DNA from: Candidatus Kaiserbacteria bacterium
GTDB taxonomy: Bacteria > Patescibacteriota > Minisyncoccia > Phycocordibacterales > UBA918
Assembly (NCBI GenBank): GCA_020428895.1
Contig: JAGQLZ010000010.1
Span: 1-10,539, forward strand
Length of the DNA: 10,539 bases
Reading direction: 5' to 3'
In this document: positions 2,452 to 9,456 of the stretch, in pieces
How the letters are laid out: every line of letters starts with the position of its first letter
Numbering within the stretch: position 1 is the stretch's first letter
Translations under genes and position numbers: made by a program
Notes under the pieces: model-generated
What the model was told of the DNA's origin: nothing
Databases searched by the model: none
Seen by the model: only the letters and a program-made list of their open reading frames with translations

Positions 2452-3816
2452 CTAAAATTCAATTTCCATTTCTTCGTTAAGTCCGGGTGCCATAGCATTA
2501 ACACCAAGATAGTCTCGTAGACGTTGCGTTAGAAAAAGTGAAGATCGTTCTTCTCCCATAGTGACAAACACTTGTTCGGCATGTTCACCACCTTGCGCTA
2601 CTAAGTTTAATAATTGGTCACGATCTGCGTGCCCAGAAAAACCACGAATTCTTGCTATCTGAGCCTTAACTCTAACTTTTTCTTTATCAATAGTAACTAC
2701 CTCTGCCCCATCATGTAGGATTCTTCCTAAACTTCCGACTGACTGATAACCAACCAACAACAAGGTGTTATTGGAATCGCTTAGATAATTCTTTTCATGT
2801 CGGCGGATTCTTCCACCATGACTCATGCCACTGCCGGCGATAATTATTTTTGGTCCTTTTTCTTTATTGATTTCGTGAGATTCCTTTACTGTTCTTGTGA
2901 ATGATAAACCTGAAAATTCAAAAATATCATCGCCGGCTTTAATTTGTTCCTGTACTGAATCTTTTAAATACTCAGGATAACGACGATAAATATCAGTCAC
3001 CGAAATGGCTAGCGGGGAATCTAAGAAAACCGGAATTGGTTCAATCGTTCCAGCTTCAACCATATTATTAATCTCTAATAACATACCTTGAGTCCGTTCC
3101 ATTGAGAAAGCTGGGATTATCAAAGTCCCACCCTTAGCTCGAGTATCCTCTATGTAATGTTGAAGTAAAGCTGATCGCTCTTCTACTTCTTCATGTAAAC
3201 GGTCGCCGTAAACACTCTCCATAACTAAATACTGATACTCAACTGGAATGACTGGTGGATTTAGAAGCGGTTGTGGGTCATTTCCGATATCACCGGTAAA
3301 CACAATACTTCTTTCGCCTCTTTCCAACCTAATCATTGCCGAACCAAGAATATGTCCAGCATCAGTAAAGGTGGCTGTAACAGCGTCAGGTAAACTTAAC
3401 GGTTCATCATAATCTAAGGCCTGCCATAATCGCATAGCCAACTCCACATCTTCATCTTCATATAAAACTTCATTGCCATATCGTTCATATTCGTAACGCA
3501 TTACTTTCAGTGCATCCTGCAACATCACGTGAGCCAAATCTTTAGTCGGTCGAGTGGAATATATCTTTCCTTTAAAGCCATCTTTAACTAACTTAGGAAT
3601 ACGACCAATATGATCAGCGTGAGCGTGGGTTACCAGCAATATATCCGCGTCTTTTGGACTATATGGAAAAGGCTCAGCGTTAGCTTCTTGGGTAAATCTA
3701 TCACCTTGAATCAATCCACAATCTACTAAAATTGCTGTTGAACCAGTATCTAACATAAAATTGGCTCCAGTTACCGAACCGACTCCTCCAAAAAACCCTA
3801 ACGTTGATGACTTCAT
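2452..3816 (-). CDS. Metallo-beta-lactamase / beta-CASP RNase (CPSF73-like)
   Basis: This is a 454-residue zinc-dependent RNA nuclease of the bacterial/archaeal CPSF73-like branch (same family as Thermus TTHA0252), distinct from RNase J in its short, single-unit length. The metallo-beta-lactamase motifs are H-A-H-A-D-H (residues 64-69), G-H-I-L-G-S with H155, and F-T-G-D with D176. The beta-CASP insert follows, with E200 in M-E-S-V-Y-G-D, the I-P-A-F-S-M-E-R-T-Q block (234-243), S-G-M-S-H-G-G with H333, and G-F-S-G-H-A-D with H396. All metal ligands appear intact, so it should be active in the cytoplasm in RNA processing or decay. No KH or other RNA-binding domain is visible. Its ATG overlaps the stop of the upstream membrane protein gene by 4 nt, so they are probably co-translated. 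Confidence 0.92.
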   Translation of the reverse strand: MKSSTLGFFGGVGSVTGANFMLDTGSTAILVDCGLIQGDRFTQEANAEPFPYSPKDADILLVTHAHADHIGRIPKLVKDGFKGKIYSTRPTKDLAHVMLQDALKVMRYEYERYGNEVLYEDEDVELAMRLWQALDYDEPLSLPDAVTATFTDAGHILGSAMIRLERGERSIVFTGDIGNDPQPLLNPPVIPVEYQYLVMESVYGDRLHEEVEERSALLQHYIEDTRAKGGTLIIPAFSMERTQGMLLEINNMVEAGTIEPIPVFLDSPLAISVTDIYRRYPEYLKDSVQEQIKAGDDIFEFSGLSFTRTVKESHEINKEKGPKIIIAGSGMSHGGRIRRHEKNYLSDSNNTLLLVGYQSVGSLGRILHDGAEVVTIDKEKVRVKAQIARIRGFSGHADRDQLLNLVAQGGEHAEQVFVTMGEERSSLFLTQRLRDYLGVNAMAPGLNEEMEIEF

Positions 3817-4199
3817 ATCATTTGTATACGTGACGCTACTAAATAACCAACCATCCCACCTAAAAATCCCATAACCAAATCAATGACTGTATCTGTAAGA
3901 TAGTTACCTTCAACCATAATATCAAAAACTACTTCGAAACCTTCCCAACTTAACATTACTAGAATTACAAAAATCATTGTTCTAGTTAGTGATGAAGCTA
4001 CATAAGAAGCCCCTGGTATACCAAGATCCCTAAGCGTAAACACTAATAAAGCAGATACCGCTCCGCCTAAAAAATGCATTGGTATATCTAGCGGTTGATA
4101 AACCCAATATAGCGATAACTCCAGAGCAATACCATGAATAATAGCCATTGTGATACCGCTGATTAAGAATAATAAAGTGGTTAGTTTCATACGTTGCAT
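3813..4199 (-). CDS. Small polytopic membrane protein, unknown function
   Basis: I give the start as ATG at 4199 (128 residues). A GTG at 4211 is in frame but falls inside the terminator of the upstream RNA gene, and another ATG at 4190 is possible. About four membrane helices can be seen (numbered from the GTG): 10-31, 43-60, 72-90 and 108-127. Notable features are D-I-P-M-H-F-L-G-G entering helix 2, W-E-G-F-E after helix 3, and T-D-T-V-I-D-L-V-M-G-F-L-G-G around helix 4. This acidic-residue and Gly-Gly pattern is reminiscent of DUF2238/VanZ-like small membrane proteins, but I cannot assign it firmly. It overlaps the beta-CASP nuclease gene by 4 nt. No Shine-Dalgarno or clear own promoter is visible. 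Confidence 0.7.
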   Translation of the reverse strand: MQRMKLTTLLFLISGITMAIIHGIALELSLYWVYQPLDIPMHFLGGAVSALLVFTLRDLGIPGASYVASSLTRTMIFVILVMLSWEGFEVVFDIMVEGNYLTDTVIDLVMGFLGGMVGYLVASRIQMI

Positions 4200-4212
4200 A
4201 AATTTTAGCACG

Positions 4213-4246
4213 AAAAAACGCGTAGCGTTTTTTCGTGCACTACGCG
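4213..4246 (-). terminator. Rho-independent terminator of the 6S-like RNA
   Basis: Read on the minus strand, CGCGTAG (4246-4240) pairs with CTACGCG (4225-4219) across a 14-nt loop and is followed by six T (4218-4213). The same bases can form a longer 14-bp alternative hairpin, 4208-4221 with 4225-4238 and a 3-nt loop, which reaches into the start region of the membrane protein gene. Confidence 0.8.
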
Positions 4247-4404
4247 GCCTTTCGTGGGAACTACAGTAGTATGCTCCTGATGCTTTATATCAGGTGGGCG
4301 CCCTTACTGAGTTGTGTCTGAAATTCCTTACGGATTCTCATTACTTCTCACGTCTACAGGCTGCCCTGCAAAAATGTAATCCGGAACATACGTTGTGTAG
4401 TCCC
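4213..4404 (-). ncRNA. ssrS: 6S RNA-like non-coding RNA (candidate)
   Basis: On the minus strand the predicted transcript begins with GGG at 4404, six bases after a TATAAT, and ends at a Rho-independent terminator, about 192 nt long. The closing stem is GGGACTACA (4404-4396) with its complement at 4265-4256 (one bulged base). A second stem pairs 4390-4382 with 4277-4269 (GTATG/CATAC and TCC/GGA, one mismatch). Then comes a large bubble whose 3' strand holds a hairpin CCTGAT/ATCAGG (4294-4289 with 4281-4276), and a long terminal arm: GGGC-A-GCCU (4366-4358) with GGGCGCCC (4303-4296), tipped by a stem with a GUAA tetraloop (4331-4328). Long rod, central bubble and 3'-side hairpin match the known 6S RNA plan, in which the RNA mimics an open promoter and holds RNA polymerase. 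The transcript itself is well supported; the 6S identity is inference. Confidence 0.6.
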
Positions 4405-4410
4405 AAACTT

Positions 4411-4419
4411 ATTATAACA
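4411..4419 (-). promoter_or_regulatory. Extended -10 promoter of the 6S-like RNA
   Basis: On the minus strand TGT-TATAAT (4419-4411) is a perfect -10 hexamer with the TGn extension. The spacing to the GGG at 4404 is 6 nt, right for a transcription start. No good -35 hexamer is present; that region is occupied by the arm of the hairpin at 4416-4446, which fits dependence on the extended -10. Confidence 0.7.
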
Positions 4420-4446
4420 AAAACTGTCCAGTGGACAGTTTTTGTT
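4416..4446. terminator. Palindromic bidirectional terminator downstream of ndk
   Basis: Perfect arms at 4416-4430 and 4432-4446 (ACTGTCC/GGACAGT core, A-rich outer part, tight loop of about 3 nt). Runs of T follow on both strands. On the minus strand it should end ndk transcripts, and its T run merges into the -10 box of the 6S-like RNA promoter. Confidence 0.8.
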
Positions 4447-4569: not shown

Positions 4570-5178
4570 TTAAACTCCTTTGTTCTGCTTAATAGCTTCG
4601 TACATGATTCTTTCCTGCGCAGTCACATAATCATGAATCTCATTTTCATCAAACCACAATTTAATCTCTCGCTCCGCCTCTTCAACAGATTCTGATTGGT
4701 GAATTAAATTTTTCACGGCCCGATCTTCATAAGTAGCATGTGAAAATGAATCAATAGTGTAGTCGCCACGAATAGTTCCCACATCAGCTGTAGCTGGTTC
4801 AGTGGAACCAACAGTCCTAGTAACGGTAGCTACGGCACCAACTCCTTCAAAAACAATTGCTACTACTGGTGACTCGGTCATATAACGAACCACAGTCCTG
4901 ATAATATCTTTTCCGTATTCGATTGGTTCTTTTTTTATGTCTCGACCCTGAGCTTTTAAATCTTCTACAATTCCTTCACCTTTGCGGGTGTACCATTCAT
5001 CATCTTTGTTGTAGTGGTCTAGCAATTGTTGTTCAGTTGGCATAACCATCTTTAAGGCAGCAATTTTAAGGCCTTTTAGTTCAAAGCGTTTGATGATTTC
5101 ACCAACCAGACTGCGCTGTACAGCATCGGTTTTAAGTAGTACCAAGCTTCGTTCTTGGTGTGGTTGTCGTTGTGTCAT
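4570..5178 (-). CDS. ndk: Nucleoside diphosphate kinase, enlarged form
   Basis: It transfers the gamma phosphate from ATP to other NDPs through a phosphohistidine. Visible family marks are L-V-L-L-K-T-D-A-V (K16), P-V-V-A-I-V-F-E-G (104-112), G-S-T-E-P-A-T-A-D-V-G-T-I-R-G-D (124-139), and N-L-I-H-Q-S-E-S with catalytic H160, then A-E-R-E-I-K-L-W-F. It is 202 residues long against about 140-150. Roughly 20 extra residues lie between D-H-Y (54-56) and the R-Y-M (98-100) segment, about 10 lie between R-G-D (137-139) and the catalytic His, and there is a C-terminal extension after residue 176. All catalytic residues remain, so activity is likely; the inserts may change oligomer packing. It has its own promoter, a leader of about 21 nt and no Shine-Dalgarno. 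Confidence 0.93.
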   Translation of the reverse strand: MTQRQPHQERSLVLLKTDAVQRSLVGEIIKRFELKGLKIAALKMVMPTEQQLLDHYNKDDEWYTRKGEGIVEDLKAQGRDIKKEPIEYGKDIIRTVVRYMTESPVVAIVFEGVGAVATVTRTVGSTEPATADVGTIRGDYTIDSFSHATYEDRAVKNLIHQSESVEEAEREIKLWFDENEIHDYVTAQERIMYEAIKQNKGV

Positions 5179-8057: not shown

Positions 8058-8072
8058 CTGAACTCCCACTTT

Positions 8073-8199
8073 ATGAGGGAGTGGTTAAATCGTTTTAGAC
8101 GAGGCACGTGAAGAAATTTGCACGAGCCTTACTGGACGTAAGGTGAGTGTAAATTTACTGAAACGCAACGAAGTATTAAACGATTTAAACCTCCCTCAT
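8073..8199. other. Nested inverted-repeat element overlapping the end of secY
   Basis: Outer arms ATGAGGGAG (8073-8081) and CTCCCTCAT (8191-8199) continue, after a 2-3 nt mismatch, into TTAAATCGTTT (8085-8095) with AAACGATTTAA (8178-8188). Inside are AAATTTGCAC (8114-8123) with GTGTAAATTT (8147-8156, one G-U pair if read on the plus strand) and a perfect hairpin CCTTAC-TGGAC-GTAAGG (8127-8143). The right outer arm contains the last secY codons and its TAA. It could be a 3'-end protecting structure of secY mRNA or an inserted/duplicated element. No run of T follows on either side, so it is not an ordinary terminator. Confidence 0.65.
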
Positions 8200-9456
8200 G
8201 GCGACTTGAGCATCAATACGACGTACCAAGTCTAGTACCACAGACACAACAATCAAAAGGGCTGTCCCACCAATCGCTAGAGTTGAAACTCCAGTGGCTA
8301 CCTGCATACCAATTGGTAATACAGCGATTACCGCTAGGAAAGTCGCTCCAACTAGGGTTAGTCGAGTTACCAAGTTACCTAAGTATTCAGCTGTATGTGA
8401 GCCTGGACGAAGTCCTGGTACAAACGCACCAGTTCTTTGTAAATTCTTAGATACAGAATCTGGATCAAAAGTAACTGCAGTATAGAAGAAGGTAAATAGG
8501 AATACTAAGATAAAGTATGCCAAACCATACCACAACATATTGCTGAAGAAGGCGTTAACTTTATCTAAAGCACCTGGTACCCATGGTAAATCAAAAGCTG
8601 ACAGGATGTTAAGAATCATTTGCGGGAATAACATGATAGACAACGCAAAAATAATTGGAATAACGCCAGCTTGGTTAAGACGAAGTGGAATGTATGATGA
8701 ACTTCCTCCGTAAGTCTTACCTCCTCGACTCTGTCTAGCGTAAGTAATTGGTACTGGGCGTTCAGCTTCAGTCATTACTACCACTAAAGCAATAATTGCT
8801 ACCGTTGCTACCGCAAAACCAAAGTACAGTGGTATCTGTGCAGTGGTAAATGTTTCATAAAGTAGACCAAAGGTTTGTGGCAAACTAGCTACGATACCGG
8901 CAAAGATGATAATAGACACACCATTACCAATACCATATTCAGTTACCAACTCACCGATCCACATTAGAAGCATTGAACCAGCAACAACTAACACAACGTT
9001 AACTGCAAACTCAAAAGTAGAAAGTCCGAAAATGATACCTTGACTCTTAAGTAGAGTTAGAAAACCAAATCCCTGCAAAATGGCTAACGGTAGTGTCAAC
9101 ATACGACTATATTGCGTAAACTTAGCGCGACCAGCCTCTCCTTCCTGAGTGTGCATACTCTTTAGTTTTGGTGACATTACTGTCATCAACTGCATGATGA
9201 TGGAAGCAGTAATAAACGGACCGACTCCTAACATCACAATTGACAGGTTTGCTAACCCACCACCTGAGAAGATATTAAGAAAACTAAAGAATTCGTTATT
9301 GCTAAAGAATTGTTCCAAAACACCACGGTCAACTCCTGGAATAGGAATAGCCGCTAATGCTCTAAATACAATCAATGCTCCGAGTACAAATAGTATACGG
9401 TTTCGAATCGCAGACTCGGTAAATGCGATTTTGGTTTTTCTTAGGAATGCATTCAT
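8185..9456 (-). CDS. secY: Protein translocase subunit SecY
   Basis: The central channel of the SecYEG export machine in the cytoplasmic membrane. At 423 residues it has the usual length and about ten membrane helices. Family blocks are clear: I-P-I-P-G-V (37-42), L-G-V-G-P-F-I-T-A-S-I-I-M-Q-L (76-90), G-I-G-N-G-V-S-I-I-I-F-A-G-I (175-188), R-P-V-P-I-T-Y-A-R-Q (233-242), Y-I-P-L-R-L-N-Q-A-G-V-I-P-I-I-F-A (255-271), a cytoplasmic loop F-V-P-G-L-R-P-G (345-352) and I-G-G-T-A-L-L-I-V-V (395-404). It begins 5 nt after rplO. The usual downstream partner adk does not follow; a convergent cmk gene does. Confidence 0.97.
   Translation of the reverse strand: MNAFLRKTKIAFTESAIRNRILFVLGALIVFRALAAIPIPGVDRGVLEQFFSNNEFFSFLNIFSGGGLANLSIVMLGVGPFITASIIMQLMTVMSPKLKSMHTQEGEAGRAKFTQYSRMLTLPLAILQGFGFLTLLKSQGIIFGLSTFEFAVNVVLVVAGSMLLMWIGELVTEYGIGNGVSIIIFAGIVASLPQTFGLLYETFTTAQIPLYFGFAVATVAIIALVVVMTEAERPVPITYARQSRGGKTYGGSSSYIPLRLNQAGVIPIIFALSIMLFPQMILNILSAFDLPWVPGALDKVNAFFSNMLWYGLAYFILVFLFTFFYTAVTFDPDSVSKNLQRTGAFVPGLRPGSHTAEYLGNLVTRLTLVGATFLAVIAVLPIGMQVATGVSTLAIGGTALLIVVSVVLDLVRRIDAQVAMREV

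Follow-up and report, generated by a model that had tools for sequence, protein, structure and literature searches.

The minus strand of the 10,539-nt stretch of contig JAGQLZ010000010.1 analyzed here (the window, in whose numbering all coordinates are given) very probably encodes the 6S RNA, a homologue of ssrS, of a patescibacterium, with a function that would follow from this homology. The comparisons made below place it, in compact form, within the 6S family, on a divergent branch that Rfam mostly misses. 6S RNA is a global regulator of transcription that grips RNA polymerase in other bacteria, and Patescibacteria are a very large group of organisms with reduced genomes, for which, to our knowledge, the tuning of transcription is little known. 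As a naturally compact variant that shows strong covariation, the RNA family represented in the window is useful for probing the minimal requirements of 6S RNA, and the 6S candidates found in Patescibacteria are ready for annotation.

An independent RNA gene on the minus strand

The RNA gene runs from 4404 to about 4213 and occupies the gap between a small-protein gene and the gene for nucleoside diphosphate kinase (NDK) (Table 1). The initial annotation had proposed a minus-strand RNA gene at this place from an extended −10 box followed by a GGG start and from a GC hairpin followed by six T, and these parts were all found where expected. The −10 sequence TGTTATAAT (4419-4411) is an exact match and stands six bases ahead of GGG at 4404, while the terminator stem is formed by CGCGTAG (4246-4240) and CTACGCG (4225-4219), after which the T run ends at 4213. 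Judged from sequence alone, this is an independent gene with a promoter and a terminator of its own.

The promoter motif is shared with the relatives described below. TGNTANNNT occurs at most 22 nt upstream of the RNA in 36 of 44 loci, compared with 218 of 8,391 control stretches (2.6%) taken from the same flanks; L043, where the upstream DNA is cut, was omitted from this count. By eye, a near variant is seen in several of the eight loci that lack the motif. In the loci inspected by eye, many copies are likewise followed by a hairpin with a run of T.

The core common to the relatives spans 4404-4256, and the remainder of the 192 nt is the terminator. The size of 192 nt had been taken as a resemblance to 6S RNA. 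That length is correct with the terminator included, but the homologous part measures 149 nt, so that the likeness to the usual length of 6S RNA is partly coincidental.

The RNA was assigned to the minus strand because homology decides it: R2, a covariance model described below, scores 133.8 bits on this strand versus 24.5 bits on the other. A plus-strand RNA was rejected, given its poorer fold (z of −4.12, with 1 of 200 shuffles as good) and its far lower R2 score. Matches of R1 and R2 on the reverse strand (17 of 64 and 2 of 44, respectively) merely mirror the rod and were disregarded; they also account for the second R1 matches in three genomes (G022, G030, and G042).

The sequence around both ends of the gene holds further repeats. 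A second, perfect 14-bp hairpin (4208-4221/4225-4238) is mutually exclusive with the terminator stem at 4219-4246. Ahead of the downstream gene and immediately beyond this hairpin on the minus strand, a TGCTAAAAT box was noticed by eye, so that a single stretch may serve both to terminate the RNA and to begin the following gene. A perfect 15-bp inverted repeat (4416-4446) directly precedes the RNA; it probably terminates the kinase gene, and its T run passes straight into the −10 box of the RNA gene.

TABLE 1 Features of the RNA gene and of its surroundings
Feature	Position	Strand	Remarks
Upstream neighbor, NDK	4570..5178	-	PF00334; co-oriented upstream in 43/45 loci
Extended −10 promoter element TGTTATAAT	4411..4419	-	Exact match; no −35 assigned; putative activity
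Probable 6S RNA core, closing stem to closing stem, 149 nt	4256..4404	-	R1 and R3 matches
Closing stem, 5' strand (partner ~4264-4257)	4397..4404	-	Helix 1; double changes in all 8 pairs, pairing in 98.0% of cells
Second helix beside central bubble (P2-like), 5' strand CGUAUGUUCC (partner ~4277-4268)	4383..4392	-	Helix 2
Central bubble, 5' strand	4368..4382	-	In register with RF00013 CCgAaaauuuuuauaauaGGG in L024 alignment
AGGGCAGCC, terminal-arm helix, 5' strand	4359..4367	-	Two G-C pairs invariant in 45/45; helix 3, 93.9% of cells paired
Apical hairpin GAGAAUCC-GUAA-GGAAUUUC, terminal arm	4320..4339	-	Folds; outside the wider A3 consensus
GGGCGCCCACC, terminal-arm helix 3' strand and start of 3' bubble strand	4293..4303	-	Conserved segment, also in RF00013
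3' bubble hairpin CCUGAU..AUCAGG	4276..4294	-	Proposed release switch; final GG shared with the P2-like helix
Intrinsic terminator CGCGTAG/CTACGCG + T6	4213..4246	-	From sequence; overlaps alternative 14-bp hairpin 4208-4238
Downstream small hydrophobic protein	3813..4211	-	VanZ-like by eye, no Pfam match; downstream in 36/45 loci
Downstream beta-CASP metallo-beta-lactamase with RMMBL domain	2452..3816	-	PF10996, PF16661, PF07521; 43/45 loci

Fold and covariation

The fold of the 192-nt minus strand reaches −68.3 kcal/mol (z of −5.92), and that of the 149-nt core has a z of −4.94; in each case, none of 200 shuffles was as good. Of the rod-and-bubble fold first described for this stretch, the rod is thus borne out, but in the single-sequence fold of the window weak pairs partly close the bubble. 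The hairpin on the 3' side of the bubble fared similarly, being absent from the single-sequence fold and present in the alignment consensus. The open bubble and the 3' hairpin are therefore features of the consensus, and the single-sequence result slightly lowers the confidence in a 6S identity.

Searches with blastn revealed matches in 21 of the 49 genomes of the window's taxonomic family, its own included. The alignment built from 20 of the 21 (A1) has 45 consensus pairs, 26 of which show compensatory changes, and the covariance model derived from it (R1) detects the RNA in 45 of the 49 genomes. R1 gives 139.1 bits for the window (E of 4.8e-32 in its genome), the window being part of the training set. 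A second model, R2, was derived from A3, a MAFFT alignment that comprises 44 members of the family together with one sequence belonging to a different family of the same order. A member with a long apical insertion (L020/L047 in genome G028, 184 nt) was omitted from both alignments. The core length in the 45 rows of A3 ranges from 141 to 167 nt with a median of 149, and pairwise identity averages 61%, with a lowest value of 41%.

In A3, 94.3% of the cells are paired, and 27 of the 34 consensus pairs show double changes, in 176 cells. The means for 500 shuffles of the alignment were 83.2% paired, 17.7 pairs, and 47.4 cells, and none of the 500 was as good. When the partner was slid by 1 to 3 columns, pairing fell to 38 to 44%, a control that favors the structure since this was derived from A3 itself. 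Helix 2 carries double changes in 8 of 10 pairs, with 96.9% of cells paired, and helix 5, the 3' bubble hairpin, has 85.1% of cells paired. Covariation thus supports the closing stem, the central bubble, and the terminal arm, with a closing arm that is shorter than that of RF00013. The initial annotation had made its proposal depend on compensatory changes among relatives and on a model built from homologous intergenic regions, and both the changes and the model speak for a structured RNA.

Relation to 6S RNA

A search of the window with the Rfam model of 6S RNA (RF00013), which the initial annotation had named as a check, retrieved nothing even at an E of 10, so that the gathering score used for membership was not reached; taken by itself, this result would argue against 6S RNA. 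The direct Rfam search of the window returned weak microRNA and small RNA matches, all below their gathering scores, and searches for a tRNA or tmRNA identity in the window were negative. The RF00013 gathering score is a detection threshold, and 24 of the 28 genomes of the phylum with RF00013 hits (see below) also fall under it. Over 48 genomes of the family, RF00013 produced one match (G011; 21.4 bits, per-genome E of 0.0115), located on the family RNA, and reached its gathering score in none of the 48. At the same loose threshold, the model also matches weakly in the archaeal control Haloferax. As a score of this size could arise by chance over 48 genomes, only its position makes the G011 match telling.

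In the alignment of this match, the consensus segments CCgAaaauuuuuauaauaGGG.agcc and gGGCaCCCACCUgga..CaGG face their counterparts in the family RNA in exact register. In the family member L024 and in L117, the bubble segments, GGG on the 5' side and CCCACCU on the 3' side, likewise line up with the RF00013 consensus. These segments are conserved within the family, where CCCAC is found, together with the two G-C pairs, in all 45 sequences of A3 and CCCACCT in 41 of them. Both 6S RNA (RF00013) and the family of the window RNA show a rod with a central bubble encoded by a separate gene, a hairpin in the 3' bubble strand, and GGG..CC opposite GG..CCCACCU. The family differs from RF00013 in its shorter closing arm, its own gene neighborhood, and its core of 149 nt compared with 187 RF00013 positions.

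This divergence beyond RF00013 and the shortened closing arm would also suit a 6S descendant that has become similar to Ms1 of Actinobacteria, acting on core RNA polymerase without sigma, or one that has lost pRNA synthesis. Ms1 is presented as a structural relative of 6S RNA (PMC9130861), and it is likewise a small RNA with a central bubble that binds RNA polymerase, a binding that in the window RNA is predicted from homology; the sequence does not settle between holoenzyme and core binding. We nevertheless regard such a change as improbable. According to the same source, Ms1 is about 300 nt long, carries extra 5' and 3' hairpins, and binds the core enzyme (PMC9130861), whereas the RNA described here has a core of 149 nt and about 192 nt with its terminator, so that the two do not correspond in size. 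Moreover, the 5' bubble strand and the CCCACC segment of L024 keep the RF00013 register, and proteins with sigma-70 region 2 are present in all 48 family genomes, at 2 to 8 each. Among the sigma-70 frames listed, many genomes have one of approximately 400 to 500 amino acids and others of approximately 200. The short frames beside a long one indicate that alternative sigma factors exist that could benefit from a 6S RNA. In the assembly that contains the window (79.9% complete), the search revealed no long sigma-70 frame but two of 192 and 197 amino acids, a point against the 6S reading.

The identification as 6S RNA is carried by models that meet from both ends through intermediate sequences. 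R2, which holds none of the 28 RF00013 loci of the phylum and has the G011 member as its sole row touched by RF00013, matches 96 of 297 genomes of the order at one place each, and 7 of these 96 belong to the window's own family. Of 20 order-level relatives, RF00013 at an E of 10 matches six, all at the place and on the strand given by R2; one of the six, searched alone, yields an alignment over the full model with an E of 0.0019. Over 332 Patescibacteria genomes, RF00013 matched 28, four of them above its gathering score. Of these 28, R1 recovers 4 and R2 recovers 12; each match falls where RF00013 had put the RNA and on its strand, and the RF00013 locus with the highest score (60.2 bits) is among them.

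A third model, R3, was built from an alignment (A6) of 20 rows of typical length. It draws on 9 order-level sequences and 11 RF00013 loci and leaves the window's own family out. All rows of A6 were selected and cut with R2, so that R3, although it contains no family sequence, still depends on the choice made by R2. R3 matches 25 of the 45 family loci, that is, the window and 24 of the 44 others; the remaining 20 gave no R3 match. Its match to the window is weak (17.1 bits, E of 0.23), at the same place and strand. At an E of 1, all 26 matches obtained in the 158 kb searched (the 25 family loci and L055) fall at the right place and strand. As a minor observation, one RF00013 match of 12.6 bits (L083, 1501-1684, minus strand) lies on a stretch that looks by eye like a tRNA, and it is probably false.

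An unrelated structured RNA that had converged on the rod shape and the CCCACCU segment would account for the lack of a direct RF00013 match in the window, for a rod-with-bubble shape that is in itself generic, and for the failure of R2 and R3 to match the ssrS locus of E. coli, which served as a positive control. This explanation is highly improbable, given that the models match in both directions via intermediates with no match out of place and that the same segments are kept along the series from family to order to phylum. With matches in place from both ends, homology to 6S RNA is taken as shown, and the 6S identity that had been guessed from shape has gained the support of RF00013, R1, R2, and R3 together.

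Gene neighborhood

The genes around the RNA are largely conserved (Table 1). The cases in which NDK or the beta-CASP gene is missing are loci cut by contig ends, and one NDK match (L096) is a short, distant piece. Among the 21 order-level loci with valid coordinates, assessed by eye and with L108 not counted, the beta-CASP gene is kept in 20 and NDK in 17. This gene context, which does not enter into the models, lends support to those of their matches that are weak.

The closeness of the co-oriented downstream genes (45 nt in the window) and the persistence of the beta-CASP gene in 43 of 45 loci might suggest a cis-acting leader or attenuator of the small-protein or beta-CASP gene, a reading that is scarcely credible because a terminator stands between the RNA and the downstream gene, because the RNA is retained in the 9 of 45 loci where the small-protein gene was not found (L054 being cut by a contig end), and because RF00013 loci of other classes have different surroundings. 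At those 28 loci, NDK was found within 1.5 kb in one case and beta-CASP in none; the gene order is not common to them, and synteny failed as a bridge to the RF00013 loci of other classes. The ssrS gene of E. coli differs as well, having zapA and fau as neighbors and no match to R2 or R3.

Distribution in Patescibacteria

Candidates for the 6S RNA were identified by R3 in 111 of the 332 sampled Patescibacteria genomes at an E of 0.01, at one place each except in G102. At this threshold, about 3 of the 332 could be due to chance, the E-values being rough and the genomes all from within the phylum. The R3 matches include 25 of the 28 genomes with RF00013 matches, at overlapping positions according to a comparison of the lists; 11 of these 25 had served to train R3 and match by construction. 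The strict filters of the phylum search missed the window's own genome, which indicates that the true number is probably above 111 of 332. R1 at the phylum level matched 3 of the 332 genomes, two of them from the window's family. Given that RF00013 reaches its gathering score in 4 of 332 genomes versus 111 for R3, the apparent absence of 6S RNA is partly a problem of detection.

In G102, two R3 matches were observed (C16:2414-2532 and C1:6233-6344), possibly reflecting a second 6S copy.

The function class of 6S RNA is known already. In the literature searched, which leaves most subscription papers outside, we found no paper linking 6S RNA with Patescibacteria, CPR, or candidate phyla; a broader query gave, among the matches listed, none joining 6S RNA or ssrS with these groups. 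As far as this literature shows, the description of 6S RNA in Patescibacteria is new, and so is the branch missed by the standard model. On balance, we favor the view that 6S RNA is ancestral in Patescibacteria and that one order carries a compact form that is invisible to Rfam, with a short closing arm and a switch made by the 3' bubble hairpin; it may represent an unrecorded brake on RNA polymerase that was retained in the reduced genomes of episymbionts.

Proposed working of the RNA

By homology, the rod with its central bubble would imitate an open promoter and would be bound by RNA polymerase carrying the primary sigma factor, which would lower transcription from ordinary promoters when growth stops. 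Once nucleotides return, the polymerase would copy the 5' bubble strand from about RNA position 26 into a short pRNA. This start, opposite approximately 4379 give or take a few bases, is uncertain and was placed from the register with RF00013. Of the CCG(A) that 6S RNA has beside the 5' bubble strand, part is conserved, with the G at alignment column 27 in 33 of 45 sequences and the A at column 28 in 23; the U at column 31 is present in 44. For E. coli, U44 is reported as the pRNA start (PMC8876501).

Synthesis of the pRNA would open the helix beside the bubble and free its 3' strand. With the GG thus released, the 3' bubble hairpin could grow from about 4 to 6 bp, which would help to free the enzyme. 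The 3' bubble hairpin is seen in the consensus. A hairpin of at least 5 bp, formed between the conserved CC that follows CCCA and the GG of the P2-like helix, is possible in 39 of 45 sequences when G-U pairs and a shift of one are allowed. 6S-1 of B. subtilis is described as having a small 3' bubble hairpin already in the free RNA (PMC8876501), a likeness to the family consensus, which also has this hairpin. In E. coli, according to the same source, an extended 3' bubble hairpin forms at the expense of the helix beside the bubble (PMC8876501), and the same alternative pairing is possible in the family sequences. The alternative pairing is thus present in the sequences, and its use as a switch is suggested by analogy with E. 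coli (PMC8876501). Because the GG and CC are nearly invariant, covariation cannot test this switch.

Other structured stretches

Two further regions of the window have rod-like folds. The stretch at 1573-1757, between the genes for IF-3 and L35, folds very strongly (z of −9.41, with none of 200 shuffles as good) and contains nested inverted repeats. Its DNA is hardly conserved, with one weak match in 30 other genomes, and it could be a leader of the L35/L20 operon or the remnant of a mobile element. The second, at 8060-8200, has a z of −5.63 on the minus strand, occurs as a single copy in the genome, and lies between a cytidylate-kinase-like gene and the next gene, which is SecY-like by eye. 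Two adjacent genes of the adenylate kinase family (PF00406; 6138-6734 and 6735-7316) adjoin the cytidylate-kinase-like gene, which is on the opposite strand.

Outside the window, a SorX-like small RNA match containing CCUCCCUGUUGGACUUGGCCGG was observed in genome G045 (L004, 2500-2567, minus strand), with 37.5 bits and an E of 1.8e-5, under the gathering score of 46.6.
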